From contig JALSMA010000042.1 in the NCBI GenBank assembly GCA_026988015.1, positions 1 to 47,354 of the forward strand: a DNA stretch of 47,354 nt, written 5' to 3'. Under the pieces are notes generated by a model. The model saw only the letters and a program-made list of their open reading frames with translations, was not told the DNA's origin and ran no database searches. The stretch comes from Desulfobulbaceae bacterium. Lineage in GTDB: Bacteria; Desulfobacterota; Desulfobulbia; Desulfobulbales; Desulfocapsaceae. Both the position numbers and the translations under genes were made by a program. Shown one piece after another: positions 9,715 to 47,237 of this stretch (positions within the stretch are counted from its first letter, which is position 1; every line of letters begins with the position of its first letter).

Positions 9715-9736
9715 CCCTGATTGGAACGGGATATGA

Positions 9737-9948: not shown

Positions 9949-10404
9949 ATGAGTGACTATGTTATAGAAAAGATTCAGGAGTTTGTGGGGAGCCTTCTGC
10001 CTTCCATGAATCTTGAGCTTGTTGAAATACAGTATCGTCAGGAAGGTGAGGGCTGGGTGCTCCGGTTGTTCATCGACGGTCCTGATGGCATCGGAATTGA
10101 TCAGTGCACAAAAGTGAGCCGGGAATTGAGCTTTTTTCTCGATGTTGAGGACCTGATTCCTCATGCATTTAATCTGGAAGTATCATCTCCTGGACTTGAG
10201 CGGCCCTTGCGTGAACTGAAGGACTTTAAACGTTTTACTGGAAAGAAGGCCCGGATAAAACTTCGTCATCCCATTGATGGACAAAAAGTGTTTGTAGGGC
10301 TGATTGGAGAGTGTGGTGAGCACGGTTTTGATCTGCTCTCTGAAGATGGAAGCAGGGCCCACTACCTGATGGACCAGGTTAGGAAGGCACGGCTGACCTT
10401 GTGA
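9949..10404 (+). CDS. rimP: ribosome maturation factor RimP
   Basis: This 151-residue protein has the RimP/YhbC/DUF150 hallmarks: an N-terminal alpha/beta domain with LELVEIQYR...GWVLRLFIDGPDGIGIDQCTKVSREL, the DVEDLIPHAFNLEVSSPGLERPL signature and a C-terminal SH3-like domain starting about residue 95. RimP is needed for 30S maturation and binds uS12 and the 16S rRNA. Length is normal for the family. An AGGG Shine-Dalgarno lies just upstream of the ATG. It is the first protein gene of the operon. Confidence 0.95.
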   Translation: MSDYVIEKIQEFVGSLLPSMNLELVEIQYRQEGEGWVLRLFIDGPDGIGIDQCTKVSRELSFFLDVEDLIPHAFNLEVSSPGLERPLRELKDFKRFTGKKARIKLRHPIDGQKVFVGLIGECGEHGFDLLSEDGSRAHYLMDQVRKARLTL

Positions 10405-10494
10405 TTGGAGCTGGCGTGCCACCTGACATAAGTAATAACAGATGAAAATAGCTCTTGGAAAGAGAAACAGAAAATATATAAGATAACAACAATC

Positions 10495-10595
10495 TCAGGG
10501 AAACCTGAAATTTCGAATTGTCAGTAACAACGGCTTCTGCTTTGGGAAACCCGATAGCAGGAATTGCTATACTGCAATGAAAGATTGTTTTTTTT
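10495..10595 (+). promoter_or_regulatory. structured leader before nusA, attenuator-like
   Basis: The 203-base gap between rimP and nusA contains TCAGG-GAAA-CCTGA (10495-10508, GNRA loop). Three short, mutually exclusive stems follow: ATAGCA/TGCTAT (about 10555-10570), ATTGC/GCAAT (10563-10567 with 10574-10578) and CAAT/ATTG (10575-10578 with 10584-10587). The last is directly followed by T8 and then by the nusA ribosome-binding site. The arrangement resembles an attenuator, but the stems are short and the function is unproven. Confidence 0.35.
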
Positions 10596-10607
10596 GTGGG
10601 GAATAAC

Positions 10608-12017: not shown

Positions 12018-12234
12018 AAGAGCTCAGCCGCTCCGAACCTGTGTCGTTTGCCGCAAGCGGAGCGCTAAAAAATTGTTGCAGCGATATGTGTGGGACAAAG
12101 ATACGGCTGATGTGGTCTTGGATCAGCAGCAGATATTGACTGGAAGAGGGGCATATTGCTGCCTGGACGGGACCTGTCGAGATCGTTTTCTCGGCAGGAA
12201 ACAGGGGTGGAAGAGGGCTTTTCGATTGAATTGA
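12004..12234 (+). CDS. rnpM: YlxR/RnpM-family RNA-binding protein
   Basis: This 76-residue protein has the YlxR (DUF448) core: the RTCVVCRKR opening, a conserved ...L.RYVWD segment, and the GRGAYCCLDGTCRDR signature. Family members are small basic RNA-binding proteins. The Bacillus protein (RnpM) was described as a modulator of RNase P. Position between nusA and infB is the standard one. The start codon overlaps the end of nusA by 14 bases, and the only nearby purine-rich stretch (GAGG) abuts the ATG, so translation is probably coupled to nusA. Four cysteines (CVVC and CCLDGTC) could bind metal. Confidence 0.88.
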   Translation: MNRNKRAQPLRTCVVCRKRSAKKLLQRYVWDKDTADVVLDQQQILTGRGAYCCLDGTCRDRFLGRKQGWKRAFRLN

Positions 12235-12298
12235 ATTTTTGTAGAGTTGTAAAAAATATTGATGTTTCTTAATGGAACGGGAATGACAGGAGTAGGGA

Positions 12299-15025: not shown

Positions 15026-15078
15026 CGGTACTTGTGCTGAGTTGCCGTCAGCAACAGCGGTATTGCCCTGAGATTATT

Positions 15079-15492
15079 ATGTGGGATCCTAAAGAAACTA
15101 TAGAATCCGTTGGTCTTGGCAAAAGGGAACGGAAACGCTCCACCCGGGTGGCGGAAGTTATTCAGATGGAGTTGTCTCTCTTTTTTCTGCAAAAAGTACG
15201 AGATCAGAAGTTGAGTGACGTGACCATCAGCCGAGTTGAAGTCTCGGATGATTTGAAAAATGCACGTATTTTTTACACTGTTTCCAGTGGAGACAGAGGA
15301 CGTAAGAAAGCCGCTTCTGCATTGAAAAACGCCACAGGTTTTGTCCGTAGTCACCTGGCTAAAATCTTAAACCTACGCTACACCCCTGCACTGAGATTTA
15401 TCTTTGATGTAAAGGCTGAAAAAGTGCAGGAAATTGAAGCACTTCTTGATCAGATCGCCTCGGAAAGGAGCACCAAAGAAGGTGATAGCTGA
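15079..15492 (+). CDS. rbfA: 30S ribosome-binding factor RbfA
   Basis: This protein of 137 residues (from the ATG at 15079) has the RbfA KH-like fold pattern: KRSTRVAEVIQMELS opening, VTISRVEVSDDLKNARIFYTV, and the closing LAKILNLRYTPALRFIFD. It binds 16S rRNA helices for cold-tolerant 30S maturation. The frame opens earlier, at a GTG at 15034, but those 15 residues are not family-like and lie against the infB stop. Neither start has a strong Shine-Dalgarno, so the exact N-terminus is uncertain. The 3' end overlaps the next gene by 11 bases. Confidence 0.92.
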   Translation: MWDPKETIESVGLGKRERKRSTRVAEVIQMELSLFFLQKVRDQKLSDVTISRVEVSDDLKNARIFYTVSSGDRGRKKAASALKNATGFVRSHLAKILNLRYTPALRFIFDVKAEKVQEIEALLDQIASERSTKEGDS

Positions 15493-31914: not shown

Positions 31915-31929
31915 GTTTCATTTTGAAGC
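31915..31929. promoter_or_regulatory. upstream activator site 1 (degenerate palindrome)
   Basis: GTTTCAT-T-TTGAAGC matches the GTTTCAT-N-ATGAAAC palindrome at 12 of 14 arm positions. It lies about 235 bases upstream of the -12 element of the sigma-54 promoter. It is supported only by similarity to the two other copies. Confidence 0.5.
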
Positions 31930-31994
31930 ATCCAATTTGGGCCAACTTGTTTTTCCCATAATCTACAATAGCTACAGGATGTTTTCATGGGTTT

Positions 31995-32009
31995 GTTTCA
32001 TAATGAAAC
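31995..32009. promoter_or_regulatory. upstream activator site 2 (perfect palindrome)
   Basis: GTTTCAT-A-ATGAAAC is a perfect inverted repeat with 7-base arms, about 155 bases upstream of the -12 element. Enhancer-binding proteins of the NtrC class bind such dimeric sites 80-200 bases upstream of sigma-54 promoters. Confidence 0.7.
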
Positions 32010-32020
32010 GTGGGTTGCCG

Positions 32021-32035
32021 GTTTCATGATGAACG
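32021..32035. promoter_or_regulatory. upstream activator site 3
   Basis: GTTTCAT-G-ATGAACG repeats the palindrome with changes in the last two positions only. Its centre is 26 bases from that of site 2, so the two dimers would sit about two and a half helical turns apart, about 130 bases upstream of the -12 element. Confidence 0.65.
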
Positions 32036-32141
32036 AGGTTTTTTTTCTGAATGATTTTCTTCCTTATCGGGGAGCGTGTTTAAGTCCCCACTTTCGTGAT
32101 GTTTTTCCCGGTGTGTTTTTTTGTCTATTTAAGTAAGTTCT

Positions 32142-32158
32142 TTGGCACGCCCATTGCT
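32142..32158 (+). promoter_or_regulatory. sigma-54 (RpoN) promoter of the TauE-USP-two-component cluster
   Basis: TTGGCACGCCCATTGCT is an exact match to the core YTGGCACG-N4-TTGCW consensus, with 10 bases between the -24 GG and the -12 GC. Transcription would start near 32169, giving a leader of about 155 bases before the permease gene. Three palindromic activator sites lie upstream, and an NtrC-type activator is the last gene of the cluster. Confidence 0.92.
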
Positions 32159-32239
32159 ATAATTCCTCTGTTCCATATCAGGAGAGAGGTGTTGAGACAT
32201 AGAGATCCAGGATGAAGATTATAACAGGAGGAACGAAAT

Positions 32240-32308
32240 ATGAAGAGTGGGCAAGGGGAAGAAAAACGAATGAATTGTGCAATGATGTCAGTTGTGTTGA
32301 AGAATTAA
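32240..32308 (+). CDS. possible leader peptide, 22 residues
   Basis: The frame MKSGQGEEKRMNCAMMSVVLKN ends with TAA just before the GGAGG of the permease gene. It has the best ribosome-binding site of the region, AGGAGG at 32226-32231, 8 bases before the ATG. It lies wholly within the sigma-54 transcript leader. A competing frame (32212-32349, 45 codons, four cysteines) overlaps it and runs into the permease start but has a poor ribosome-binding site. Either could couple translation to the permease. No homology is recognised, and the ribosome-binding site is the only support. Confidence 0.35.
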   Translation: MKSGQGEEKRMNCAMMSVVLKN

Positions 32309-32324
32309 TGGAGGAAAAAATATC

Positions 32325-33263
32325 ATGTTACATATGTATTTACCAATAGCAGGAAACAGCGTCAATGTGTTCCTGATATTAGGTCTTGGCGGTTTTGTTG
32401 GGCTGTTGTCAGGTATTTTCGGAGTTGGTGGAGGGTTTTTAATGACACCCCTGCTAATGATGTTTGGTATTCCACCAACGGTGGCTGCCGCATCAGACTC
32501 TAATCAGATTGTGGGGGCTTCAACTTCCGGGACTCTGGCGCATATGCGTTTGGGAAATGTGGATGTACCCATGGGACTGATGCTTCTTATCGGTGGTGTG
32601 GGAGGTGGTACTGTTGGAGTTCAACTCATTAAGCTGCTACGTGCCATGGGCAATGCTGATTTTCTCATTGCCATCACCTATGTCATCATGCTTGGTGGTG
32701 TTGGTGGCTATATGTTTTGGGAAAGTCTTCAGGGTTTGAAAAAGGATAAGCAGGGAATTGCGGTAACGGCTCAGGTTGAAGAAAAAGAATCTGTTAAAGG
32801 TGGTAAGACGTTTTTGCAGCGTCTTCCTATGCAATATAAATTTGAGAAATCTGGTTGTGAGGTTTCCATGCTTATGCCGTTATCAATTGGAGTTCTGGTT
32901 GGTATTCTGGCGGCCATCATGGGTGTTGGAGGTGGCTTTATCATGGTTCCGGTCATGGTCTATTTACTCCGGATGCCAATGCATGTTGTGGTTGGAACGT
33001 CATTGTTTCAGATCCTTTTCACTTGCATTAACGTAACCATAATGCAGTCTTATTCCAATCATACAGTGGATTTTGTTCTCGCTGTATTGCTGCTCCTTGG
33101 GTCAACGATTGGGGCTCAGGCAGGGACGGCGGTATCAAAACGTCTTAAGGCGGATCAGCTGAAGATAATGTTGGCAAGCCTGGTGTTACTGGTTTGTGTC
33201 AAGATGACAGCAGGTCTATTGATGACACCTGCCATTATGGTTGCCCTGAAAGGAGGACATTAA
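32325..33263 (+). CDS. TauE/SafE-family anion permease
   Basis: This 312-residue multi-spanning membrane protein has the two-fold repeat of the TauE/SafE (COG0730/TSUP) family: GLLSGIFGVGGGFLMTPLLMMFGIP in the first half and GILAAIMGVGGGFIMVPVMVYLL in the second. Each repeat is followed by a conserved helix (AAASDSNQIVGAST; VVGTSLFQILFT). A cytoplasmic loop of about 50 charged residues (about 140-185) separates the halves. Characterised members export sulfite, sulfoacetate or related organosulfur anions or take up thiosulfate; the substrate here is unknown. It is the first full-size gene after the sigma-54 promoter, with an AATGGAGG ribosome-binding site. The next gene starts 1 base after its stop. 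Confidence 0.9.
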   Translation: MLHMYLPIAGNSVNVFLILGLGGFVGLLSGIFGVGGGFLMTPLLMMFGIPPTVAAASDSNQIVGASTSGTLAHMRLGNVDVPMGLMLLIGGVGGGTVGVQLIKLLRAMGNADFLIAITYVIMLGGVGGYMFWESLQGLKKDKQGIAVTAQVEEKESVKGGKTFLQRLPMQYKFEKSGCEVSMLMPLSIGVLVGILAAIMGVGGGFIMVPVMVYLLRMPMHVVVGTSLFQILFTCINVTIMQSYSNHTVDFVLAVLLLLGSTIGAQAGTAVSKRLKADQLKIMLASLVLLVCVKMTAGLLMTPAIMVALKGGH

Positions 33264-33264
33264 G

Positions 33265-34053
33265 ATGAGTTTGATGAGACTGGTCAAAATTACGATAGCA
33301 AGTTTTCTGGGGGCGTTACTGCTGGTTCCATTCTTAGAATGTTCTGCCGATGCTGCGATGGGTGACGTATCCCTTGAGCTTGCCCAGGACACCATTGAGA
33401 TCTCCACGTTCTACAATGGTACAACTCTGGAGGTGAGCGGTGATGTAGCAGTGGATGATGACGTTGTACTGCTGGTGAGTGGCCCGAGGGAAGAGGTTCA
33501 TTTGAAGGAAAAAGGTAAGGTCGCCGGTTTTCTATGGATGAATAAAAAGGATGTCATATTGGAGAACACCCCTGCCGTTTATATGGTTTACACCCCGGAA
33601 GGGAGCAGCGAGAAGTTAGTCAGTACTGATCTGGGTACCGGGTACCAGGCATTACTATCAGATATCTCCATCATGCCGGAGTCTGCCGATAAGGCTTTTA
33701 TTTTTGAGGAATATGTGAAGTTGATGGAACAGTCTGGTGTCTATGCTGTTCATGCTGCATCTGTTCAGTATGGCACGCCTGAAAATGGCATGAAAAGTTT
33801 TAAGGTTGTGCTTGTTATTCCTTCCAAAATGAAAGCAGGGACATACAGTGTTGAAGCTATTGCGGTGAAGGGTGGTGTTGTTATAGATCGGGCCCAGTCT
33901 GGATTGATCCTTAAACTTTCAGGGCTTCCTGCTGTTATCTCTTCCCTGGCCTACGAACGGCCCCTGCTGTTTGGTTTTATGGCAGTATTTATTGCAATTG
34001 CAACTGGTCTGCTGATCGGGGTTGTCTTCCGCGGCGGCGGTGGCGCTCATTAA
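33265..34053 (+). CDS. TIGR02186/Alph_Pro_TM-type membrane-anchored periplasmic protein
   Basis: This 262-residue protein has an N-terminal signal (about residues 1-31). It then has a beta-rich periplasmic part whose core, IEISTFYNGTTLEVSG...VVLLVSGPREEVHL.EKGKVAGFLWMN, matches what I know of the TIGR02186 (putative transmembrane, Alph_Pro_TM) family, and a single C-terminal membrane helix (about 235-255). In other proteobacteria this family is found beside TauE/SafE permeases, as it is here, so it is probably a periplasmic partner of the permease. The biochemical role is unknown. It starts 1 base after the permease stop with AGGAGG upstream, so the two are coupled. Confidence 0.82.
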   Translation: MSLMRLVKITIASFLGALLLVPFLECSADAAMGDVSLELAQDTIEISTFYNGTTLEVSGDVAVDDDVVLLVSGPREEVHLKEKGKVAGFLWMNKKDVILENTPAVYMVYTPEGSSEKLVSTDLGTGYQALLSDISIMPESADKAFIFEEYVKLMEQSGVYAVHAASVQYGTPENGMKSFKVVLVIPSKMKAGTYSVEAIAVKGGVVIDRAQSGLILKLSGLPAVISSLAYERPLLFGFMAVFIAIATGLLIGVVFRGGGGAH

Positions 34054-34084
34054 AGTGAATTCGTTACGAGGAACAGAAAAGCAC

Positions 34085-36649
34085 ATGAGAAACTTTCTGC
34101 TGCAATTTGCTGAGATTTTTGTCAAGAAAAAGCACAGCAATACACCATTCAAAGTGCTGTTTGCCGATTTTAAGAAGAGTCTGGATTTGAACAATCAGAT
34201 TCTGGATATCATAGGTGATGCCAATGATAAACTGAGCGGCGATTACATATTTGATGAGCACTATATCCACACCACCTGTGGACAACTGACGGATCTGCTA
34301 CGGGAACTAATTGTAACCATTAATCACCTCACATCTCAGAAATATACGGGACTGTTTAACAGCTTTCATCGGATAGAGGAAGATCTGGCTCTTATTCTGC
34401 GGGGAAAGGTTTTGTCTCAGGATATACCACTTACTCTGCAGTATTCTGATATCACCAGAGATCTCGTTGACGCTGTGGGAGGGAAAAACTGCCATATTGC
34501 AGAAATTGGTTCGTACCTCGGCCTGAGAATTCCCCGGGGATTTGCAATAACAACATCTGCTTTCGAGTTGTATTGGAAGGCAGGGAATCTTGATAAATCT
34601 GTCGCTCAAATTAGGGAACAGTGGCTCGATGAGCAGCTCACTTTGTCTGAGGCCTCTTCAAGAATCCAGGAGCTGATTCTTAAGACTCCTGTACCGGATA
34701 TCCTGGATAAAGCAATTCTTGCTGCAGCAGCAGAGGTTGTGGGGAAGGATGGTAGGGGAAAACCATGTTTCGCTGTCCGCTCCAGTGCCCTTGGAGAGGA
34801 TGGTGTGACTTCCTTTGCCGGGCAGTATCAGAGTTGTTTGAGTATTCCCCCGGACCAGATTACCCGGGCCTATAAGCAGGTAGTTGCAAGTCTCTACAGT
34901 CAGCAGGCCATGGAATATCGGTTGAAAAAAGATTTCCGTTCCGAAGAGGTCGTGATGGCGGTTGCCTGTCAGCTGATGGTACCTGCTAAAGCCAGTGGGG
35001 TCATGTACACCTATGACCCGTTACGACCTGAGGGAGAAACTATATTAATCAGTTCAGCCTGGGGGCTTGGAGAGCCAATTGTAGCCGGTGCAGTTGCCAC
35101 TGATCATTTTGTCCTTGAACGGAAACCACCCCATAAGGCAATTGAGATGCAGATTGTGCGAAAGGATGAGTCCATGGTTATTACGGGTTGCGGTGGGCTT
35201 AACAATGTGGCTGTCCGTGCCAGGCAGCGCACAGAACCAAGCCTGAAGGCCGGTCAGTTACATGATCTGGCTAAGACAGGTGTGTTGCTCGAGAGATACT
35301 TTAAGGCTCCTCAGGATGTTGAATTTGCCATTGATCAGGCGGAGCAGATTGTTCTCCTGCAGTCCCGACAGCTGCAGCTTCACTATGATCGTCTACCGCG
35401 GGCCTGTGACCTTTCCGGGATTGACAGAAGCTATCCTGTTCTTCTTCGGGGAAAAGGTGTTGCTGCCATGGAAGGAATTGCCTCCGGACCAGTATGGATC
35501 CTGGATGCAGAGAAAGATCTGACTGATTTTCCAATGGGCGCTGTTCTGGTGGCAAGACATGCTTCACCACAGCTTGCAAAAGTGATCCATAAGGCTGCTG
35601 GATTTATAACTGATATCGGTTCCACCACCGGGCATCTGGCAACGGTGGCCAGGGAATTTAGGGTTCCAGCTCTTCTTAATACCGGGGATGCCACCACCAT
35701 TCTGCGTGATGGCTGTGAAATCACCATGGATATAGAGTGCCTGACCATCTATGAAGGGCAGGTCCCGGAGCTGCAGCACTACAGCCTTCAGGAGGAAGCC
35801 ATTGAGGATATGTTTGAATATCGTCTGTTACGCCGGGTGCTCAGAAAGATAGAGCCCCTCAATCTTGTTGATCCTGAGAGTGATAATTTTACCCCGGAAA
35901 ATTGTAAAACCTACCATGATCTCACAAGATTTATCCATGAAAAAGCTGTGGAAACCATAATTGATATCAGTTTTTATCATGCTCATCATAGAGACACCCA
36001 GGTTGGGAAACTCCTATGGGAGTATCCTCTTGATCTTGTGCTTATTGATGTAGGTGGGGGCATAGACGGGGAGCATACTAAGGGGATCCTGGCTGAACAG
36101 ATTAGCTCTGTTCCTATGCAGGAACTGCTTCGAGGCATGTCTTGGCCAGGGGTCTGGGATATGACGCCGTCCAGGGTTGATTTTAACAGTTTTATGTCAA
36201 GTCTGACCCGGACAGAGCCAATACGAAACAGCAGCCCCGAAGATGTTGGACGTAACTTGGCTGTTATTTCGAGTGAGTATACCAATATAAATTTTCGGCT
36301 TGGATACCACTTCACCGTAATAGATGCTTATATCTCTGAAAACATTCTTGATAATCATATATATTTCAGGTTTTCCGGTGGCGTAACAGACACGGCGAGG
36401 CGTTCCCGACGAATCAAGCTCCTTGGTCGCATTTTGTCCCATTATGATTTTCTCTGTGAGGTTCACGGGGATACTGTGGTGGCCCGTTTGAAGAGAATGG
36501 ACAGGAAAAGCATACTGAAACGGCTGTTTTTACTGGGGTTGCTTGTCGCCTATACCCGACAGCTGGATGTCAAAATGATAAATGACACCAGAATAGATCA
36601 ATATTTCAAAGAAATACAAACCATAATGGAGGAGAGCAATGACAACTGA
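34085..36649 (+). CDS. PEP-synthase-like phosphotransfer protein with atypical architecture
   Basis: This 854-residue protein begins with about 125 novel helical residues. A PPDK_N ATP-grasp-like nucleotide-binding domain follows, with VGGKNCHIAEIG, RSSALGEDGVTSFAGQYQS, SSAWGLGEPIVAGAVATDHF and DVEFAID...LLQSRQ. Next is the swivelling phosphohistidine domain, with its His in GSTTGHLATVAREFRVPALL. The PEP/pyruvate-binding TIM barrel of real PEP synthase is missing. Instead the last 240 residues form an unrecognised domain (for example RLGYHFTVIDAYISE and a Lys/Arg-rich stretch). It may therefore phosphorylate a partner or nucleotide instead of pyruvate. I place the start at the ATG at 34085 (GAGGA upstream); GTG or ATG codons further 5' overlap the previous gene. 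The 3' end overlaps the receiver gene by 11 bases. Confidence 0.8.
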   Translation: MRNFLLQFAEIFVKKKHSNTPFKVLFADFKKSLDLNNQILDIIGDANDKLSGDYIFDEHYIHTTCGQLTDLLRELIVTINHLTSQKYTGLFNSFHRIEEDLALILRGKVLSQDIPLTLQYSDITRDLVDAVGGKNCHIAEIGSYLGLRIPRGFAITTSAFELYWKAGNLDKSVAQIREQWLDEQLTLSEASSRIQELILKTPVPDILDKAILAAAAEVVGKDGRGKPCFAVRSSALGEDGVTSFAGQYQSCLSIPPDQITRAYKQVVASLYSQQAMEYRLKKDFRSEEVVMAVACQLMVPAKASGVMYTYDPLRPEGETILISSAWGLGEPIVAGAVATDHFVLERKPPHKAIEMQIVRKDESMVITGCGGLNNVAVRARQRTEPSLKAGQLHDLAKTGVLLERYFKAPQDVEFAIDQAEQIVLLQSRQLQLHYDRLPRACDLSGIDRSYPVLLRGKGVAAMEGIASGPVWILDAEKDLTDFPMGAVLVARHASPQLAKVIHKAAGFITDIGSTTGHLATVAREFRVPALLNTGDATTILRDGCEITMDIECLTIYEGQVPELQHYSLQEEAIEDMFEYRLLRRVLRKIEPLNLVDPESDNFTPENCKTYHDLTRFIHEKAVETIIDISFYHAHHRDTQVGKLLWEYPLDLVLIDVGGGIDGEHTKGILAEQISSVPMQELLRGMSWPGVWDMTPSRVDFNSFMSSLTRTEPIRNSSPEDVGRNLAVISSEYTNINFRLGYHFTVIDAYISENILDNHIYFRFSGGVTDTARRSRRIKLLGRILSHYDFLCEVHGDTVVARLKRMDRKSILKRLFLLGLLVAYTRQLDVKMINDTRIDQYFKEIQTIMEESNDN

Positions 36650-37028
36650 ACAGACCAGTATTTTGATCCTGGATGATGAACCCATCGTGAGTAAGCGATT
36701 AAAACCATCTCTTGAAAAGAAAGGGTATGAAGTGGAGACTTTTACCAGGAGCGCTGATGCTTTGCAACGGGTGATGGAGAGACATTTTAATATAGTGATA
36801 ACAGATCTTAAGATGGAAGGTATGGATGGTATGCAGTTTCTCACCGAAGTCAAAGAGCGGTACCCTGATACTGAGGTGATCGTTATAACAGGATTTGCGA
36901 CCATGGCTACTGCAAAGGAATCGTATAATAAAGGGGTCTTTGACTTCCTGGCCAAGCCCTTCAAGTTAGGGGAAATATCCGAGGTTATTGCCAAGGCAGA
37001 AAAAAAAATAAAAAGACTTGAGAGGTGA
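36639..37028 (+). CDS. stand-alone response regulator receiver
   Basis: This 129-residue single CheY-like receiver domain has the acidic pair in LDDEP, phospho-acceptor Asp56 in IVITDLKMEGMDG, the Thr/Ser switch in VIVITGFA and the Lys in FLAKPFK. No output domain is present, so it acts by protein contact or as a phosphate sink. It starts inside the end of the PEP-synthase-like gene with a GGAGGAGAG ribosome-binding site. It is therefore translationally linked to it, which suggests the two proteins work together. Confidence 0.93.
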   Translation: MTTEQTSILILDDEPIVSKRLKPSLEKKGYEVETFTRSADALQRVMERHFNIVITDLKMEGMDGMQFLTEVKERYPDTEVIVITGFATMATAKESYNKGVFDFLAKPFKLGEISEVIAKAEKKIKRLER

Positions 37029-37032
37029 GGAA

Positions 37033-37848
37033 ATGCTGAAAACACTACTTTATATAAATGAAGACCTAGCGTCAAGTATTGCTCTGCGTTTTACAGATTA
37101 TCTAAGTCGTTTTGTGAACCTTTCACTCTTTGTTGCCCATGTGGAAGAGCCGGATGAAAAAGAACAGGTGGGAACGGGTTGGGTACGTCGCACCTGGGAA
37201 GATGGTGTGGCTTCCAGTGGGAAGAGGCTTGTTGATCGGATGTTACGAACCGAAAATATTAACTGTCCTTTGGCTGGCCGCCCCAAAATCTTTGTTGGTG
37301 AAATGGAAAGAGAGATGATTTTCGAGCTGCGCAACGGCCTCTATAAATTGTTTATAAAGGGGTACCTTGACTCTGCTGATCCAGAGCCGTTTTACGACCT
37401 TATCAGCTCGTCACTCTGCGAAGAAATGTCATGTCCGGTGTTAGTGGTGAAAAATCTTTCGCTGAGCAAGAGGTGTGCTCTGCTTTGTGCAGACGGCGTG
37501 GACCCAAGGACACTTGTGGAACAGTCCATGGAGATAGTTGGTGAGTCAAGCTTTGAACTCGACATCGTCTATTTTAAATTTCAGGAAAGTGATCAGGTCC
37601 AGATCCTGGACAGCCGAGAGGGGGGAAGCAATTTAAGGGAGACCGAGTCTCTCCTTGCTGCAGCTGGTAAAACTGTAGCGAACACCATCGTACTAACCGG
37701 TGTGCCGGAACAGATTGGAGATTACTTGAAAGAGTATGCACTGGTGGCTTCCACCATGCCAGGGAGAAAGAGCATGCATATGTATGTGCTGGCCCATTCA
37801 CTGGCATCGGTGCTTCTAGTACGGGACACTGCACAAAAACAACAATAA
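37033..37848 (+). CDS. universal stress protein-like protein, tandem degenerate domains (first copy)
   Basis: This 271-residue protein has two weak UspA-like halves. The first starts MLKTLLYINEDLASSIALRFTDYLSRF and ends EEMSCPVLVVKN. The second starts KRCALLCADGVDPRTLVEQSMEI and ends HSLASVLLVRD. Both ends match the beta-strand that closes USP domains (..CPVLVV/..SVLLVR). The usual G-x2-G-x9-G(S/T) ATP-binding loop is absent in both halves, so nucleotide binding is doubtful. It has GAGGTGAGGAA before the ATG at 37033, just after the receiver gene. A related protein follows at 37872. Confidence 0.65.
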   Translation: MLKTLLYINEDLASSIALRFTDYLSRFVNLSLFVAHVEEPDEKEQVGTGWVRRTWEDGVASSGKRLVDRMLRTENINCPLAGRPKIFVGEMEREMIFELRNGLYKLFIKGYLDSADPEPFYDLISSSLCEEMSCPVLVVKNLSLSKRCALLCADGVDPRTLVEQSMEIVGESSFELDIVYFKFQESDQVQILDSREGGSNLRETESLLAAAGKTVANTIVLTGVPEQIGDYLKEYALVASTMPGRKSMHMYVLAHSLASVLLVRDTAQKQQ

Positions 37849-37871
37849 ATCAGATTGAGAAGAGGATTGTA

Positions 37872-38720
37872 ATGAAAATATTAGTTGCACTGGATGGAAA
37901 ATCTTATAGCAGGGGAATTGTAAAAGAAGTGGCCCGCCTGTCTGAAGGTACTCTCGCTGATGTCGTCTTTCTTGGTATCCAGGATTCGAAAACCAAGGTG
38001 TCACAGTCGCTGCAGATGCTTCTCCATGAGTATCAGCAGGACCTGTACAGCTATTTCAGGCCGGATGAATTGCCCTATGCTGATTTTTCACTTGAGAAGT
38101 GGCAGAAGATCGCCAGTGGTGACTGGAAGGTGTCGGCAGCTGGTATGAAAGAATTCACACTTCGAATCAGAAGTGGTAGTGTGGCCAAAGCGGTGGTTGC
38201 TGTTGCCGGTGAAATGGAGTGTGATCTGGTGATTTTGGGTTGTGATCTTAAGTGTGGCTGTGAATGGGATGGTGAGATAAACGTTCCGCTACGGATAGCC
38301 GAAGATGCACCCTGTTCGGTGCTGGTTATAAAACAGAGCGGTAATACCCAGGAAATTGTATCCATTCTTGACCAGTCTGAGGTTCATCAGGAGGCCATGG
38401 AAATGATAAATCAGCTGGTAACCCTTCATAGCGCAGGTCTCAAAATTATAGGCGTTCAGGAAAAGAATGAAGACAAAAACGATATGCTGGAACAGCGTAT
38501 GGTTGAGTTGCTGAAATACTATAATGATCGGGCGGTGAGTGCGTGGGTAAAAGTGATAGATAGTGCCATGGTGACAGACTACGTGACTGAATCTTCCCGA
38601 AAGGCAATAATTGCCCTTTGGATGGGAGGTAAGCAATCTCTTCTAAAACGGTTGTTTTCCCACAGCATGGTGGATAAGCTTCTCAGTACTTCGAGCTCCT
38701 CGGTGTTTATTCTCAGGTAG
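37872..38720 (+). CDS. universal stress protein-like protein, tandem domains (second copy)
   Basis: This 282-residue protein is again built of two UspA-like halves. The first runs from MKILVALDGKSYSRGIVKEVARLS to VAGEMECDLVILGCDLKCG...IAEDAPCSVLVIKQ and is the more canonical of the four half-domains in the cluster. In place of GSHGRSG the nucleotide loop reads GCDLKCGCEWDG, with three cysteines close together. The second half ends GGKQSLLKRLFSHSMVDKLLSTSSSSVFILR. Its Cys-rich loop might bind metal or respond to redox state. It follows the first USP-like gene by 23 bases with an AGAGGA ribosome-binding site. Confidence 0.7.
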   Translation: MKILVALDGKSYSRGIVKEVARLSEGTLADVVFLGIQDSKTKVSQSLQMLLHEYQQDLYSYFRPDELPYADFSLEKWQKIASGDWKVSAAGMKEFTLRIRSGSVAKAVVAVAGEMECDLVILGCDLKCGCEWDGEINVPLRIAEDAPCSVLVIKQSGNTQEIVSILDQSEVHQEAMEMINQLVTLHSAGLKIIGVQEKNEDKNDMLEQRMVELLKYYNDRAVSAWVKVIDSAMVTDYVTESSRKAIIALWMGGKQSLLKRLFSHSMVDKLLSTSSSSVFILR

Positions 38721-38836
38721 AAGTCGGTAGTGATGAGCTTGTGGTCTAACGTTGTTTTTGTGGGGAAACACATCCATTTCCTGATCAATGGTTGTTTGTA
38801 ACTGGTTCTGATGTTTTTTCAGGGAGAGAAAACCAA

Positions 38837-40291
38837 ATGAAAATACCATGCTTTTTTAGTGCCTGTACCATCAGGAAACGTTTGATTATTATCAACTCCA
38901 TGACCATTGGTTTTGTTTTTGTCCTTATTTCCATTTATACTTTTCAGCTGATTGCGGTGGAGAATAACTTGATAATGATGGAGCAGGTTGATGACCTCTT
39001 TAGCTCCATCCTCGGTCTACGCAGGTATGAAAAAAATATCATGCTGAAGCTTGATGAGGGTAATGTTGCTAGGGCAATCAATTCAATATCAACAATTGAG
39101 ATGTACCTGAAGTCTTTGGAGCCTGAAATATTGACGGAAGAGGGGAAGGGGCTTTATACTTACCTTAAGAACGACTTCGACAGTTATGAATCCACTTTTA
39201 AGCACTGGTGTTCGGAGGGAAAATGTCTTGAACAGTTCCCGGATAGTAAAGATTTTCGCCTTATCCGTCAGCAGGGACAGAATCTGGTAGAGTCAGCTGC
39301 AGAACTTGCCAGGCTTAATCGACAAACAATAAGCCGGAGGTTCAAAACAATTCTTTTTTGGCTAACCTTTTTGCCAGCGATTGTTTTTTCAATCGGAGTG
39401 CTGCTATTTTTTTCACAGGTCAAAAATATTCTAGATCGTCTCGGCTCTCTCAAAAAAGCTACCAAGAGCCTCGCAGCTGGCAAGTTTAAACCCATCGTAA
39501 CTACTGGTTCTCCAGATGAAATAACCCAGTTAATTCGTAACTTTAACCAGATGGGAGTTGCACTTGAAGAAAAACAGGAACAGTTGATTCAGTCAAAAAA
39601 GATGGCCTCCATTGGCACCTTCTCATCGGGTATTGCTCATGAAATAAATAATCCCCTTAATAACATCTCACTTTCCACAGATACTTTACTGGAAGAAATA
39701 GATTCCATGGATTGTGAGGAGAGAAAAGAGATTCTTGATGACATTATGGCCCAGACTGAACGTGCCAGTAAGATAGTGCGGAATCTGCTGGATTTTTCAC
39801 GAGCGCAGTCATCGGAAATGCAGGTACTGTATATAGACTATATCCTTCATACCACGATGGATCTTATTGCCAATGAGTTGCAGATTCATCAGATAAAGCT
39901 GGTGAAAAATATTGCTGACAGAATGCCGGAAATAAATGGTGATTTACAACAGTTGCAGCAGGTATTCCTGAACCTGATAATTAATGCAGAACAGGCCATA
40001 GGGGAGTCCGGAGAAATAACTGTAAAATCAGGTCCTTTTGATGAAAAATATATTCGTACAGATATAATTGACAATGGTCCCGGGATCATTCAGGAGAATC
40101 TGGAGCAGATATTTGATCCATTTTTTACAACCAAGGAAGCTGGTAAAGGGACAGGACTGGGCCTATCCATAGTTTATGGTATAGTAAAAAAACATGAGGG
40201 TTATATTGAAGTGACGTCTGTTTTGGGAAAAGGTACGACATTTTCGGTGTATCTTCCAATTTGTCAAGGCGATAAGAAGGGTACAGACTGA
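38837..40291 (+). CDS. membrane sensor histidine kinase
   Basis: This 484-residue kinase has transmembrane helix 1 at about residues 13-37 and a helical periplasmic sensor of about 130 residues with a Cys pair (WCSEGKC). Transmembrane helix 2 (LFWLTFLPAIVFSIGVLLFF) precedes a HAMP-like linker. HisKA has the phospho-acceptor His268 in GIAHEINNPLNN, as in NtrB-like kinases, and the ATPase domain has N (VFLNLIINAEQAI), G1 (DNGPGI) and G2 (KGTGLGLSIVYGIVKKHEG) boxes. The start is the ATG at 38837 with CAGGGAGAG upstream. It starts 116 bases after the USP-like gene. It overlaps nothing, but the NtrC-type regulator begins 1 base after its stop and is its obvious partner. Confidence 0.95.
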   Translation: MKIPCFFSACTIRKRLIIINSMTIGFVFVLISIYTFQLIAVENNLIMMEQVDDLFSSILGLRRYEKNIMLKLDEGNVARAINSISTIEMYLKSLEPEILTEEGKGLYTYLKNDFDSYESTFKHWCSEGKCLEQFPDSKDFRLIRQQGQNLVESAAELARLNRQTISRRFKTILFWLTFLPAIVFSIGVLLFFSQVKNILDRLGSLKKATKSLAAGKFKPIVTTGSPDEITQLIRNFNQMGVALEEKQEQLIQSKKMASIGTFSSGIAHEINNPLNNISLSTDTLLEEIDSMDCEERKEILDDIMAQTERASKIVRNLLDFSRAQSSEMQVLYIDYILHTTMDLIANELQIHQIKLVKNIADRMPEINGDLQQLQQVFLNLIINAEQAIGESGEITVKSGPFDEKYIRTDIIDNGPGIIQENLEQIFDPFFTTKEAGKGTGLGLSIVYGIVKKHEGYIEVTSVLGKGTTFSVYLPICQGDKKGTD

Positions 40292-40292
40292 C

Positions 40293-41660
40293 ATGATAAG
40301 TGTTGCGGTAATAGATGACGAGGAAACAGCCAGAAAGATGACGGCTCGTATTCTTGAAAAGGCTGGTTATACGGTTGAGACCTTTGGCAGTGGTTTGCCT
40401 TTTCTTCGGAAGATGGAGGCGGAAGCTTTTGATATAGTTTTTTTGGATCTGCAGCTCCCTGACATTGGGGGATTGGAAATCCTCTCTCATGTAAAGTCTA
40501 TTCACTGCTGGACTCAGGTGATAATTGTGACAGGTCATGGCACAATTGAGAATGCTGTTAAAGCTACCCAGAAAGGAGCTTTTCAGTACCTTACCAAACC
40601 ATGTCGCAGCCATGATATCTGTCTTATGGCCGCTCGGGCAGCTGAAAAAATAGCATTACATCGTGAAAACGACCGACTTCGGTCACAGGTTGATACCCAT
40701 GGGCTGTTATCGGGTTTTATCGGTAACAGTAAGGCGATGCAGGCGATATTTACGACAATCAGAAAAGTGGCCCAAGTAAATTGCAATGTACTGCTCGAAG
40801 CAGAAACAGGGACGGGAAAACAACTGACGGCACAGGCGATTCACGATCTTGGGCCTAGAAAGAATGCCCCTTTTGTATACTTTAACTGCGGAGGTTTTAC
40901 CGAGGAGCTTATCTGCAGTGAACTTTTTGGGCATGAGAAAGGTGCCTTTACCGGAGCTGACAACTGTAAGATTGGGCTGCTTGAATCTGCTGCAGGTGGA
41001 ACAGTTCTCCTCGATGAGATCAGTGAGATGCCTCTGTCCATGCAGGTTAAATTACTCCATGTTCTCCAGGAACGGCAAGTGCTTCGTGTGGGGGGAACCA
41101 GGCCCGTAGATCTCCATATTCGTATTATTGCAGCGACAAATCGGAATCTGAAACAGTGTGTTAAGGAGGGATTGTTTCGCGAAGATCTCTATTATCGCTT
41201 AAATGTGGTATCCATTCGACTCCCACGACTCAGCGAGCGCAGGGATGACATTCCACTTCTGGTGCATCATTTTATTGGCCGGGTGAACAAGGCTTTTTCC
41301 AGAGAAATCCGGGGTATATCACCAGAGGCTTTGGAGTTGTTGATGCATTATGATTTTCCTGGAAATGTTCGGGAGCTTGAAAATATCATACAACACGCTG
41401 CGGCCTTGACTGACGAAATAAAGTTGCTGCCGGAGGATCTGCCGGCAAGACTTCGTAAGGTTCATCAATGGGATAATATCTCTACAGAACTTGTGGCCAT
41501 GGAAGAAATGGAAAAACAGTATCTGGCCCGAGTGTTGGCAAAAACCGAACACAATATAAAGGCTGCTGTCAGTATCCTGAAAATACCTAGAACCACACTC
41601 TGGAGAAAAATCAAAAAATATAACATTACGCAGACTTTCCCGTCAGGTGAAGACTCTTGA
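40293..41660 (+). CDS. NtrC-type sigma-54-dependent response regulator
   Basis: This 455-residue protein has three domains. The receiver (1-120) has Asp52 in FLDLQLPD and Lys in YLTKPC. The AAA+ domain has Walker A EAETGTGK (about 170-177; consensus GETGTGKE slightly changed), ELFGHEKGAFTGA (GAFTGA loop about 217-222, the sigma-54 contact), Walker B GGTVLLDEI, FREDLYYRLNV and the arginine finger region. The Fis-type DNA-binding helix-turn-helix is at the C-terminus (KAAVSILKIPRTTLWRKIKKY). It is 1 base after the kinase gene. It is the only sigma-54 activator in the window and the best candidate to bind the palindromes at 31915-32035 and drive the promoter at 32142, which would make the cluster autoregulated. 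Confidence 0.96.
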   Translation: MISVAVIDDEETARKMTARILEKAGYTVETFGSGLPFLRKMEAEAFDIVFLDLQLPDIGGLEILSHVKSIHCWTQVIIVTGHGTIENAVKATQKGAFQYLTKPCRSHDICLMAARAAEKIALHRENDRLRSQVDTHGLLSGFIGNSKAMQAIFTTIRKVAQVNCNVLLEAETGTGKQLTAQAIHDLGPRKNAPFVYFNCGGFTEELICSELFGHEKGAFTGADNCKIGLLESAAGGTVLLDEISEMPLSMQVKLLHVLQERQVLRVGGTRPVDLHIRIIAATNRNLKQCVKEGLFREDLYYRLNVVSIRLPRLSERRDDIPLLVHHFIGRVNKAFSREIRGISPEALELLMHYDFPGNVRELENIIQHAAALTDEIKLLPEDLPARLRKVHQWDNISTELVAMEEMEKQYLARVLAKTEHNIKAAVSILKIPRTTLWRKIKKYNITQTFPSGEDS

Positions 41661-42074: not shown

Positions 42075-43373
42075 ATGGCCAACGATAGCCAGGCATTTCT
42101 GAATCGTTGCTTCCTGTTTGATATTGAAACAAACGAGAAGGGAGAGATCTATTCTCTGGGCGCGTGGTATAACGGCAAAAAATTTAACAGCCGCCAAGGT
42201 CGAAAGGTTAGGAGAGAGGAACTGGCCGAATTTGACACCTTTGTGAGTGGCGCGGAGTTTGTTCTTGGTCATAACATCCTCTCTCATGATCTTCCATGTC
42301 TGCATGAACGTGCACCGACCCTCGCCATCCTGCAGAAGCCGGTTGTTGATACCCTCTATCTCTCGCCCCTGGCCTTTCCGGAAAACCCCTATCACAGACT
42401 GGTAAAAAACTATCAAATAGTCAGAGACAGTATTAATAATCCGGCGGAAGATGCCGTACTGGCCGGTAAAGTTTTTATCGAACAGTGGGATGTGTTTTTA
42501 CAGCTGCTGGCTGGTGGGTCCGACACCCCTCTGATTTACAGAGGATTCTTTCACCAGGTTGACAGGTTTGCTGGGATTTCTGCAGCTTTTGAAGCGATGG
42601 GTGTACCGCTTGTGGCTGGAGATGACCTTTATGATGCCTTTTCCTGGTGTATTCAGAACGATGTTTGCAGAGATGCCCGCAATAGACTTATCGAACAGCT
42701 TGTTGACGGGAGAATGGAACACCCTCCATTGGCCTATGTTCTCGCCTGGTTAGTTGTTTCCGGAGGGAACTCTGTTCTGCCACCCTGGGTTCGACATCAT
42801 TTCCCGGTCGTTCCCACCATTATCCATCAGTTACGGGAACAACCCTGCACCAATCCCCACTGTGATTATTGTAAGACAAATCATAATCCCAAGTTTTTCC
42901 TGAAGAATTATTTTGGTTTTGAGGATTTTCGATCGGCACCAGCCACTGAAGATGGCCAGAGTCTGCAGGGTGTAATTGTCAGTGCTGCTGCCCGTAACGC
43001 ATCTCTTTTTGCCACCTTGCCCACAGGGGGAGGGAAGACCCTCTGCTATCTGCTTCCTGCCTTAATGAGGTATCGCCGGTGCAACAGTCTGACTATCGTT
43101 ATTTCTCCATTGCAGGCCCTGATGAAAGATCAGGTGGAAAATTTCTCGAAACAGACTGGGACCACTTTGGCTGCCGCCATTAACGGAATGCTCTCAATGC
43201 CAGAAAGGGGTGAGGTGATGGACGGGGTTCGCCTGGGAGACGTTGGTGTTTTGTATGTCTCACCGGAACAATTGCGCAATCGCTCCTTTGTTCAGACCAT
43301 CAGTCAGTGTGAGATAGGTGCCTGGGTTTTTGATGAAGCCCATTGTCTCTCTAAATGGGGTCATGATTTCTGA
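42075..43373 (+). CDS. N-terminal fragment of the split helicase: exonuclease-like domain plus RecQ motifs 0-II
   Basis: If translated alone this gives 432 residues. Residues 10-140 look like a DEDD-type 3'-5' exonuclease: FDIET (motif I), LGHNILSHDLPCL (motif II) and NNPAEDAVLAGKVF (motif III, but with Asn at the place of the usual His). A Cys cluster CTNPHCDYCK lies near residue 257. RecQ-type motifs follow: LPTGGGKTLCYLLPAL (Walker A, about 315), VISPLQALMKDQV and DEAHC (motif II). It ends just after motif II, so it would lack helicase activity by itself. Confidence 0.75.
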   Translation: MANDSQAFLNRCFLFDIETNEKGEIYSLGAWYNGKKFNSRQGRKVRREELAEFDTFVSGAEFVLGHNILSHDLPCLHERAPTLAILQKPVVDTLYLSPLAFPENPYHRLVKNYQIVRDSINNPAEDAVLAGKVFIEQWDVFLQLLAGGSDTPLIYRGFFHQVDRFAGISAAFEAMGVPLVAGDDLYDAFSWCIQNDVCRDARNRLIEQLVDGRMEHPPLAYVLAWLVVSGGNSVLPPWVRHHFPVVPTIIHQLREQPCTNPHCDYCKTNHNPKFFLKNYFGFEDFRSAPATEDGQSLQGVIVSAAARNASLFATLPTGGGKTLCYLLPALMRYRRCNSLTIVISPLQALMKDQVENFSKQTGTTLAAAINGMLSMPERGEVMDGVRLGDVGVLYVSPEQLRNRSFVQTISQCEIGAWVFDEAHCLSKWGHDF

Positions 43374-43475
43374 CCGGATTACCTCTATTCCATTCGCTTT
43401 ATACGTGAATTTGCTCAGCAGGAGAAGTGTAAAATTCCACCGGCACAGTGTTTTACTGCCACGGCAAAGAAGGAT

Positions 43476-46400
43476 GTGCAGTCTGAAATTATCGATATAA
43501 TCGGACGAGAGCTTGGGCTGCGGATCCTCACCTTCGCTGGTGGCCATGAGCGGGATAATCTGCACTACGAAGTGTGGCCGGTTGACAAGTATGAAAAGGA
43601 CCAGGAAATTCTGAACATACTGAAAAAACGCTATGACAATTCAGGTAGTGTGGTCATTTACTGCGCCACTCGTAAAAATACCGAAAATCTAACGGAGTTT
43701 CTGGTTACTGCAGGCTACAGGGTGGAGGCATTTCATGCCGGCCTTGAGCCTTTTGTCAAAAACCGCATTCAGGACGATTTTATTGCCGGTGAAGTTCCAG
43801 TCATTTGTGCCACCAACGCCTTTGGCATGGGAATCGACAAGGATGATGTGCGGCTGGTGATCCATGCAGATATTCCCGGTTCTCTGGAAAATTATCTCCA
43901 GGAGGCCGGACGTGCAGGGAGGGATCGTAATGTGGCTGAATGTATCCTTATTTTCACTGAGCAGGATGTGGAAGGTCAGTTTCGAATGAGTAGCAGCTCG
44001 AGGTTAACGCAGAGAGATATTGCCCAAATCCTGAAGGGGTTGCGTCATGCAGCAAAGGATAATGGTCAGGTAGTGTTGACCACCGGAGATATTATCAGGC
44101 TTGATCAGGTTGAGATTGATGAGGATGAATTCGGCCAGGATAGGGACACCAGAGTTAAGACAGCAGTTTCCTGGTTGGAGAGGGGAGGATTTCTCCATCG
44201 TGACGAGAATAATACTAATGTTTTTCAAGGAAAACCACTAGTTCGCAATATGGAAGAGGCTGAAGAAGAGATCGGAAAACTTGGTCTTTCCAGGAGGCAA
44301 CGTAAGCGCTGGCTGGATATCCTAACTGTTCTGATGGAAATTCCTCCTGCCAAGGGATTCAGTGCCGACGAACTTGCAGTGCTGAGCTCTTTTGCCACTA
44401 CAGACAACGACTCTGAGAAAGGAACCGAGACTCAGAGAGTGCTCCGGACCCTCGAGGATATGGCCAAACAGGGGCTTCTTTCAAAGGAGACAGTTCTGTC
44501 GACTTATATCCGCTTTAAAATCAAAAATAGTTCGGAGAAACTTCTCAAACGATTCTGCCTAGTGGAAAATGATTTTCTGAAAATTCTTGAAGAGACGGTA
44601 CCGAACGTGGTGCTGGATAAACAGCTGGTGCTAGATTTGAGACAAGTCAACCAACGCCTGATAGATATGGGGCACAGTTATTGTACACCTGGGAGTTTGG
44701 GTTTGGTGCTTCGGGGGTTGAGCCGTGACGGTAAAGGATTAGCTGGTAAGAAGGGAAGCGTTAGTGTCAAATCAAGGGGCAACAGTCAATTTTCAATAAT
44801 GATCCACCGTGACTGGAAGTCACTGCGTAAAACCGTCACCATCCGCCAGCAGGCCGCCCATGTTGCGCTTCAGATAATCCAGGCTCAACTCCCGGCAAAG
44901 ACAGGGCCAAGTGCTTCCTTGCTGGTGGAATTTACGCTGGAGAGGGTCGTTGAGGGGCTCAAGAAAGATCTGGTACTCTTTTCAGAGCTTAGGGACCCGC
45001 TGGCAGCGACGGAACGGGCTCTGACCTTTATGCACGAGCAGGGGGTGATACTGTTGCAGCAGGGATTGGCTGTCTTCAGGCAAGCCATGACTATTACCAT
45101 CGAGGAGGAGGCAAGGGGCAGGCGTTATACCAGGTCGGACTTTGAACCCCTGAAAACCCATTACTCCGAAAAAAACTTTCAGATCCACGTTATTAATGAG
45201 TATGCCCGTTGTGCAATGAAGAAAATAAGTGTGGCCATGAATTTGGTGCAATCATACTTCAATGATGAAAAGAATGAATTTGTAAAACGATTCTTTCCAG
45301 GTAAAGAGGAACTGCTTGAACGGGCTACCAGTGAACAGTCCTATCAGCGAATTGTTGAAGATCTGCACAACCGAGCTCAGGAGGGTATAGTTGCTGCATC
45401 CACCGACAGCAATATGCTCATCATGGCTGGTCCTGGAGCCGGGAAGACCAGAACGGTTGCCCATCGGGTGGCGTATCTTCTCCGGGTGAAACGGGTGAGG
45501 CCCCAGGCGATTCTGGTACTTTGTTTTAACCGCAGTGCAGCCATCGGCTTGCGGAGGAGGTTACGGGACCTGGTGGGTAAAGATATGAGCCGGGTTACAA
45601 CGTTGACCTTTCATGGACTGGCTCTAAGGCTGACAGGACGTTCTCTGGTTCGTCGTACAGGCGGTCCTGTGAGGGATGAAATTGATTTTTCCAACGTTAT
45701 TCAGGATGCCATCGTCCTGCTCAAAGGGGGGCGTGGTGTCGTTGGTTTTGGTGAGGATCAGCTAAGGGCCGCTTTGATGGCACGGTTCAGCCATATCCTG
45801 GTGGATGAGTATCAGGATATCGACGAGGAACAGTATGAGCTGGTATCTTTACTGGCCGGGCGGGCGCACACCGAAAAGGAAGAGAAACTCTGCATCCTGG
45901 CGGTGGGAGATGATGACCAGAATATTTATCACTTTCGTGGTGCAAATGTTGATTTTATCAGGCGATTCAAGGTTGATTATCAGGCAGATGTCCATTACCT
46001 GACCGAAAACTATCGGTCTACTGCCAATATTATTCAAGCTGCAAACTCCCTTATTGCACTTAACCGGAACAGGATGAAGGGCGCACATCCCATTGAGATT
46101 AACAGGGCCAGGGCAACCTTGCCGCCTGGGGGTAACTGGCAGCTTAGTGATCAGACCGCTTTCGGGAAAGTCCAATGTCTGCGGGTAAAGGATATCATTT
46201 CCCAGGGATTGATTTTGCTGGAGGAATTACTGCGCTTACAAAGTTTGAGTAGTGACTTTAATATAAACAGTTGTGCTATATTGGCAAGAGAATGGCAAGA
46301 GCTTGATATTGTACGTGGAATTTTCGAGGATTACGAAGTTGCGGTGAGTCTGAATTGGGGCAGGAGTGCTTTCCCGAGTCTGACTCGTATCCGTGAGAAT

Positions 46401-47237
46401 GAGCAGCTATTGAGTTTTCTTCATAATTACAGCGAGGAACAGATTTCGGCTGATTTGCTGTTTGAGCTTTTGCCTGTGCAAATGGAAGGGGACAATATCT
46501 GGCAGCAGAACCTGCGCTCTCTTATCCGGGAGTGGCAGAGCGAGACAAGCAACAGCCCTCAACCCATTGGGCGGGTGGAAAACTATTTTTATGAATCACT
46601 GGTAGACCAGCACCGTTCGAGAAACATGGAAAACGGAATTTTTCTCTCGACCGTTCATTCTATCAAAGGGCTGGAATTTGATCATGTCTTCATCCTTGAT
46701 GGTAACTGGCAAAAGAGAAAGGGGCTGGAATTGGAAGAAGAACGCAGGCTATATTATGTTGCAATGTCTCGAGCCCGGGAGACCCTCCAGCTTTTTGATA
46801 TAGAGGGTTCGCAGAATCCACATATAAAGCATTTACATAATGAATCTCTAATAACTCGTAGAATCTCCCCGGTTCACAGGCAGCATAGTAAGGTTCCACG
46901 CTATGAATTACTCGGAATGAAGGATCTTTTTATAGATTTTGCGGCGACCAATAAAGAGAATCACCCTGGTAACATGGCCATTAGGGAATTGACAACTGGT
47001 AGCCGATTGACAATCAGTCGAATTAAAAAGGCGCTCTATCTTCTCAATCATGATGGAATTGCTGTGGCCCGTCTTTCAAGAGCAGCGCAGGAAAGGTGGC
47101 AGTCGAGGATAGATACAATCAGAGAAATAACAGTTATTGCACTTGCCTGTCGTTATAAGACTGATATTAAAGACCAGGACTTTCAGCTACGATGTCGCAA
47201 TGATAGCTGGGAGGTCCCAGTTGTTGAGGAGTTATGA
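43476..47237 (+). CDS. C-terminal fragment of the split helicase: RecQ second half plus UvrD-type helicase
   Basis: This open region continues the same frame. The listed start is a GTG inside the gene; the sense frame itself opens at 43374. It carries the second RecA-like half of RecQ ([63 protein letters not shown]). A region of about 450 residues without a recognised domain follows. A full SF1 UvrD/PcrA-like helicase comes next: [72 protein letters not shown] and [11 protein letters not shown]. The UvrD part is complete and could fold on its own if translated. The last 130 residues are unassigned. Confidence 0.7.
   Translation: [1253 protein letters not shown]

Follow-up and report, generated by a model that had tools for sequence, protein, structure and literature searches.

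A phylum-wide TauE-type permease cluster of Desulfobacterota with a lone receiver, a PEP-synthase-like protein and an RpoN control region

The stretch of DNA analysed here (the window) is the 47,354-nucleotide contig JALSMA010000042.1 (contig C42 in our numbering) of the Desulfobulbaceae bacterium assembly GCA_026988015.1, a genome of 3.15 Mb in 91 contigs. In the window, a control region with palindromes and an RpoN -24/-12 promoter precedes eight genes, which encode a TauE/SafE-family permease (TauE), a TIGR02186 protein, a phosphoenolpyruvate (PEP)-synthase-like (PPS-like) protein, a lone receiver, two candidate universal-stress proteins (USP1 and USP2), a membrane sensor kinase and an NtrC-type activator (Table 1). 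All of these had been claimed in an earlier note made from the letters alone, and all were found to be present by the open reading frame (ORF) list, by Pfam and NCBIfam profile searches for the gene families and by motif scans. The cluster around the TauE-type permease and the receiver/PPS-like pair is real, phylum-wide and RpoN-controlled. TauE matches the PF01925 profile at positions 2-237 of 237 with its residues 19-294 of 312, which places it in the TauE/SafE (TSUP) family. From the reading frames, the most likely starts of the PPS-like, USP1 and kinase genes are the ATG codons at 34085, 37033 and 38837, respectively.

Table 1. Features of the control region and of the permease cluster in the window.
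Feature	Position	Strand	Remarks
Distal palindrome GTTTCATTTTGAAGC	31915..31929	.	2 mismatches; matrix score 19.8 bits; conserved in L009
Main palindrome GTTTCATAATGAAAC	31995..32009	.	0 mismatches; 25.4 bits; 80 bp from distal palindrome; conserved in L009
Third palindrome GTTTCATGATGAACG	32021..32035	.	2 mismatches; weak, 10.5 bits
RpoN -24/-12 promoter TGGCACGCCCATTGCT	32143..32158	+	perfect consensus
TauE/SafE-family permease	32325..33263	+	312 aa; PF01925, E 1e-48
TIGR02186/PF09608 putative transmembrane partner	33265..34053	+	262 aa; E 2e-42
PPS-like protein	34085..36649	+	854 aa; PPDK_N and PEP-utilizers
Lone receiver	36639..37028	+	129 aa
USP1, possible degenerate double universal-stress protein	37033..37848	+	tentative
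USP2, universal-stress protein with degenerate second half	37872..38720	+	Usp E 8e-10, first half only
Membrane sensor kinase	38837..40291	+	HAMP-HisKA-HATPase
NtrC-type activator	40293..41660	+	REC-AAA+-HTH_8 (Fis HTH); GAFTGA intact

Conservation of the gene set was followed by tblastn in 62 stretches, which comprise the window, two relatives, 40 stretches chosen by PPS-like similarity from 297 genomes of the phylum (nearly in rank order, with G270 and G047 passed over) and a further 19, out of 58 genomes of the order, selected for their TIGR02186 similarity (a 20th, L111, duplicates L011). The order TauE - TIGR02186 - PPS-like, which the earlier note had proposed to look for in other Desulfobacterota, recurs in 57 of the 62 stretches; a receiver gene follows the PPS-like gene within 1.5 kb in 53 of these 57, the kinase and activator lie in the same stretch in 45 and a USP match in 31. 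In the tabulated clusters, the TauE that adjoins TIGR02186 is 59-96% identical to that of the window. The best 44 matches to the C-terminal domain of the PPS-like protein fall in 43 of the 297 genomes, and in 42 of these PF09608 is encoded at most 4 kb upstream on the same strand, while in the 43rd (G135) the two genes are on different contigs. At an E value of 1e-10 the C-terminal domain is present in 107 of the 297 genomes, and PF09608 is present in 51, in eight of them outside the PPS-like neighbourhood. PF09608 proteins that stand apart from the PPS-like group, and second copies (8/51 genomes), often obtain the higher Pfam scores.

Occurrence is patchy, with TIGR02186 found in 28 of the 58 genomes of the order and absent from the only further genome of the window's genus that was sampled. 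One subtype has two or three PPS-like genes per cluster, and the recurring neighbours beyond the core families are USPs, some antisense ORFs and small groups. In a tree of the PPS-like proteins, 41 of 56 TIGR02186-linked members form one pure clade (support 0.34), and 35 of them a clade with support of 1.0; we give this tree little weight. Plasmid records gave 165 matches, all of which cover less than 80% of the query, and the 30 that were listed are either unannotated or of the ppsA type. PPS-like genes and lone receivers are also paired in paralogous clusters: of 16 PPS-like genes in 12 further stretches, 11 have a receiver gene no more than 1.5 kb away. Both this count and another of 49 of 85 PPS-like genes run low since greedy ORF picking hides short genes. 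In one such stretch (L167, 936-8114) a PPS-like gene and receivers lie in another permease context, with neighbours that we take, from their sequences, to be an SLC13-type permease, a cytidylate-kinase-like gene and a USP. The PPS-like/receiver pair may thus also partner other anion permeases.

The control region was examined in 53 clusters, after leaving out four stretches without TauE (L058, L078, L080, L125) and five with too short an upstream sequence (L063, L067, L068, L077, L128). Upstream sequence was counted up to 900 bp, a limit set after an earlier look at 500 bp, and palindromes were accepted with at most three mismatches against an expectation from dinucleotide shuffles. A palindrome lies upstream of TauE in 45 of the 53 clusters, a co-occurrence that the earlier note had proposed to check, and the 85 sites found compare with 3.0 expected. 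Their density upstream of TauE is 2.11/kb; it falls to 0.094/kb in the remainder of these stretches and to 0.10/kb in the 12 stretches with PPS-like paralogues. The 81 sites outside the window refine the consensus to TGTTTCA-N3-TGAAACA, and the matrix built from them was used to score the sites of the window. The -24/-12 element was scored with ad hoc weights (perfect element, 20); a score of at least 18 is reached upstream of TauE in 32 of the 53 clusters, with 1.2 expected. This recurrence across genomes is decisive for the reality of the palindromes. The earlier note would have been refuted by a gene set that does not stay together or by palindromes missing from orthologous clusters, and both checks came out in its favour. 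A fixed helical spacing was considered and rejected, as the distances between neighbouring palindromes range from about 16 to more than 100 bp.

In the window itself, the first two of the three palindromes described in the earlier note are strong, while the third is weak. The whole window holds 11 palindromes with at most three mismatches (3.55 expected; none of 100 shuffles reaches 11) and five with at most two (0.375 expected, 40 shuffles). The nearest relative, L009, retains both strong sites as well as the promoter, while much of the sequence between them differs. A further match of 19.5 bits at 42116 lies inside helicase frames, about 1 kb or more away from any -24/-12 element; these frames (42075-47237), presumably RecQ-like and UvrD-like helicases judging by their translations, resemble a single gene that is interrupted between 43373 and 43476.

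The own genome has one rpoN gene found and nine perfect TGGCACN5TTGCW elements, as against two in a reversed control. Palindromes with at most two mismatches occur at 36 places, compared with seven in the reversed control and about 25 expected from scaled window shuffles, a modest surplus. The scan covered the surroundings of these places (stretches L130-L162 and L176) and of eight of the nine perfect -24/-12 elements, and among the places examined no second site of at least 16 bits lies upstream of a -24/-12 element scoring at least 18. This combination was found at the present cluster only, and the control region therefore looks like a local switch.

The window activator has REC, AAA+ (with GAFTGA) and HTH domains, in agreement with an RpoN/NtrC-type operon; some activators of the relatives carry GAFTGA variants. 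The claim of RpoN control through the palindromes, with the activator as their likely reader, found support in the co-conservation of the site and of the helix motif RTTLWR, which is kept in 44 of 46 aligned activators. The two exceptions are L066, where the motif is RVTLWK and the locus has no palindrome, and L079, whose activator is cut short. The activator thus likely binds the upstream palindromes. Self-activation, which the earlier note had also proposed, is the weaker claim: kinase and activator do lie downstream on the same strand in the window, but this layout is seen in only eight of the 53 clusters, the window included. The activator is upstream on the same strand in 34 clusters, upstream on the opposite strand in five and downstream on the opposite strand in one, and five have none in the stretch. 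No palindrome was found upstream of the upstream-lying kinase genes in the 13 readable stretches (of which L059 and L066 are without a matching activator; rows L045, L047, L051, L056 and L060 were left out). In the window, a gap of 116 bp precedes the kinase gene and contains a weak terminator-like stem of five pairs (38691-38703). Since kinase and activator are on the same strand and only this weak stem stands before them, read-through from the operon is possible. By eye, a perfect hairpin can be made out in L009 in the interval that separates USP2 from the kinase gene (14713-14752); it was not seen in the window gap. The general pattern is that the permease operon has its own dedicated switch, to which a putative autoregulation would be an optional addition.

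The PPS-like protein consists of an N-terminal region, a PPDK_N ATP-binding domain, a histidine-bearing swivel domain and a C-terminal domain (about 568-854). R232, E413, Q426, R428 and H517 of the ATP site and the swivel are invariant in 40 aligned sequences; we assume their roles by analogy with pyruvate phosphate dikinase (PPDK). The ATP-grasp and phosphohistidine domains of PEP synthase (EC 2.7.9.2) are present, and the profile of the family matches PEP synthase structures in the PDB over positions 108-567. Pfam searches found no PEP/pyruvate TIM barrel family in the protein. The PDB profile matches stop near 567-586, and the last 287 residues of the window protein matched no Pfam family and no PDB chain. 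Among 16 members, the C-terminal domain gave three Pfam families at chance level, in one member each. An AlphaFold2 prediction from a four-row alignment had a mean predicted local distance difference test (pLDDT) score of 34 and was not used. From its domains, the protein would phosphorylate its own histidine from ATP, and the missing barrel together with the unmatched C-terminal domain suggest that an acceptor other than pyruvate would be needed. Both features fit the added phosphorelay to a non-pyruvate target that the earlier note had envisaged.

A related gene set is the Desulfovibrio nitrate cluster (DVU0251-DVU0245 / Dde_0597-0605), which contains a TauE/SafE permease, a kinase, a lone receiver and a PPDK-like protein (PMC4001038). 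In the portion of that paper available to us, D. vulgaris mutants with an insertion in DVU0251 (TauE), DVU0250, DVU0247 (receiver) or DVU0246 (PPDK-like) showed the same growth whether or not 100 mM nitrate was present, they were not resistant to nitrite and a leaky thiosulfate transporter was proposed (Korte 2014), an interpretation that is repeated in the accessible part of a later paper (PMC9723548). The DVU0245 mutant was still nitrate-sensitive, and for DVU0250 the pooled data conflict with the single mutant (PMC4001038, same portion). One of our stretches, L163, looks like the nitrate-cluster type, with the similar order TauE - protein of about 200 aa - X - kinase - receiver - PPS-like; in full, positions 7133-15188 encode a 104-aa protein, TauE, DUF4881, a 282-aa protein, a dCache kinase, a receiver and a PPS-like protein. 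The last is 33% identical to that of the window over 840 positions, the C-terminal domain included. DVU0250 is presumably the DUF4881 protein, which is a guess on our part.

Taken together, we lean towards the view that the cluster is an RpoN-controlled oxyanion-permease module of Desulfobacterota, in which the permease needs, or is controlled by, the receiver and the ATP-dependent phosphohistidine enzyme. The membrane kinase, going by its gene pairing, would phosphorylate the NtrC-type activator, which would bind the pair of conserved palindromes and open the -24/-12 promoter of the TauE-TIGR02186-PPS-like-receiver-USP operon. TauE and its TIGR02186 partner would then move a sulfur-type oxyanion, possibly thiosulfate or sulfite. 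The PPS-like protein, as its domains and invariant residues suggest, would pass phosphate from ATP via the swivel histidine to an acceptor served by the C-terminal domain, not pyruvate, and together with the lone receiver it would switch on or power the permease. An action of these two proteins on the permease is proposed because of their frequent pairing and because losses of permease, receiver and PPDK-like protein share the nitrate-resistant phenotype in the nitrate cluster. In its boldest form, which we hold to be doubtful, a receiver-gated, ATP-driven phosphohistidine enzyme with a new kind of C-terminal domain would phosphorylate the permease, the TIGR02186 partner or the cargo, and thereby power or gate the uptake of inorganic oxyanions in Desulfobacterota.

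The same protein could also be read as a metabolic dikinase for a small molecule, whose substrate or product is the permease cargo while the receiver only provides feedback to the kinase. Other acceptors do occur among PPDK-type enzymes, as the NCBIfam relatives rifamycin phosphotransferase and prodigiosin ligase illustrate, and many residues of the C-terminal domain are invariant across the 40 aligned sequences. We nevertheless judge this quite improbable, as the pairing with a lone receiver persists in the paralogous clusters and, in the available part of PMC4001038, receiver and PPDK-like mutants of the nitrate cluster have one phenotype.

The USPs bear on a second alternative. The earlier note had described two degenerate double USPs, which holds in part for USP2 and is suggestive at most for USP1. 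In a structure search the first half of USP2 matched USP structures and its second half one only, at E 0.045, while USP1 had no Pfam match at E 0.001 and matched no USP structure. Five of 14 scanned USP1 members, a set outside which the window protein falls, show Usp below E 1 (best 0.002). A 22-codon ORF with a ribosome-binding site lies at 32240-32308 between promoter and TauE, with five residue changes in the L009 copy; several other clusters have a single-domain USP-like gene in its place, and the one in L055 matches Pfam Usp. Under this alternative the circuit is real and has a general response to stress, or an envelope response, as its effector; the USPs and the PPS-like protein would modify a cellular target and TauE would export a toxic product such as sulfite. 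The USPs are indeed linked in the 31 stretches above and are the leading gene in several, and in the accessible part of PMC3333781 several stresses are found to induce DVU3298-3305 (with an activator, a kinase, USPs and an anion transporter), which is termed a general stress module there. Yet the USPs are less constant than the permease/PPS-like/receiver core, and the related nitrate cluster affects sensitivity to nitrate, not nitrite (PMC4001038, available portion), and this response appears unlikely to us. From the envelope or sulfur-anion stress response of the earlier note, the sulfur-oxyanion theme stays plausible and the envelope part is unsupported.

Several points weigh against the oxyanion-permease module as we describe it. 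Eight of the 53 upstream stretches are without a palindrome and 21 without a -24/-12 element at the cut-off, and in three of the 62 (L067, L068, L077) the kinase gene ends less than 80 bp from TauE, which leaves no room for a control region. The activator HTH (0.61) is conserved no better than the other domains, with AAA+ at 0.75, and helices like RTTLWR are common in this activator class. Weaker combinations of palindrome and -24/-12 element exist in the own genome (L132, L140, L148, L150, L158), and some, for example L132, L140 and L148, may be further targets. The TauE proteins of the two subtypes are 30% and the receivers 35% identical, and the window TauE clade has no known transported ion. 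DVU0246 (2235 bp), compared by length only, falls short of the window PPS-like gene by about 110 codons. The phenotypes of the nitrate-cluster mutants could be due to polar effects, or to a regulating and not a powering role towards the permease.

The interest of the cluster lies mainly in the phosphate acceptor of the PPS-like protein. Should the boldest form of the reading above be true, it would be a new transporter control and a counterpart of the sugar phosphotransferase system, run from ATP instead of PEP. The entry of sulfur oxyanions and of their toxic look-alikes (nitrate, chlorate, molybdate) into sulfate reducers is poorly known; TSUP/TauE-type proteins are abundant in their genomes, with functions that are not predictable according to the available part of PMC5840216. 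The gains are a sharply delimited control region that is phylum-wide and comes with its binding motif, and an enzyme family with a likely relative in the nitrate cluster that already has a strong mutant phenotype. Signal and phosphate acceptor thereby both become testable.

The earlier note knew of no described system that unites these parts, which goes too far in view of the nitrate cluster, DVU0539-0545 and DVU3298-3305. A literature search that covered few subscription papers found nothing naming TIGR02186, Alph_Pro_TM or PF09608 and no title pointing to a TauE/USP/PEP-synthase-like/receiver cluster. RpoN-controlled USP/anion-transporter clusters and nine RpoN operons containing TSUP or PSE transporters are documented in the accessible parts of three papers (Trotter 2023, PMC10102598; Rajeev 2011, PMC3333781; Kazakov 2015, PMC4641369), to which the following comparison is limited together with that of PMC4001038. 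The nitrate cluster shares with the window TauE, the kinase and the lone receiver, as well as a PPDK-like protein that has an ATP-binding and a mobile domain. Its published table gives a PtxB-type protein and a phosphatase, with no TIGR02186, USPs or NtrC-type activator (PMC4001038), while the window has TIGR02186, USPs and the activator in place of the PtxB-type protein; the nitrate-resistance phenotype is known for the nitrate cluster only. In DVU0539-0545, a kinase and an RpoN activator control USPs and an anion transporter, as proposed for the window, but the transporter is of the PSE family, the phenotype concerns molybdate and no PPS-like protein, lone receiver or TIGR02186 is named (PMC10102598). 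DVU3298-3305 likewise has a kinase, an RpoN activator that binds its own operon, UspA-domain proteins and an anion transporter, and differs by a Lon-type receiver protein and a chlorate phenotype, with no PPS-like protein named (PMC3333781, PMC10102598). With PEP synthase and PPDK, the PPS-like protein shares the ATP-binding and phosphohistidine swivel domains and invariant key residues; unlike them, it has no PEP/pyruvate barrel, an unmatched C-terminal domain and N-terminal region, and a receiver as neighbour. As far as searched, the combination with TIGR02186, USPs and an own activator with its enhancer is new, while its parts are related to known clusters.

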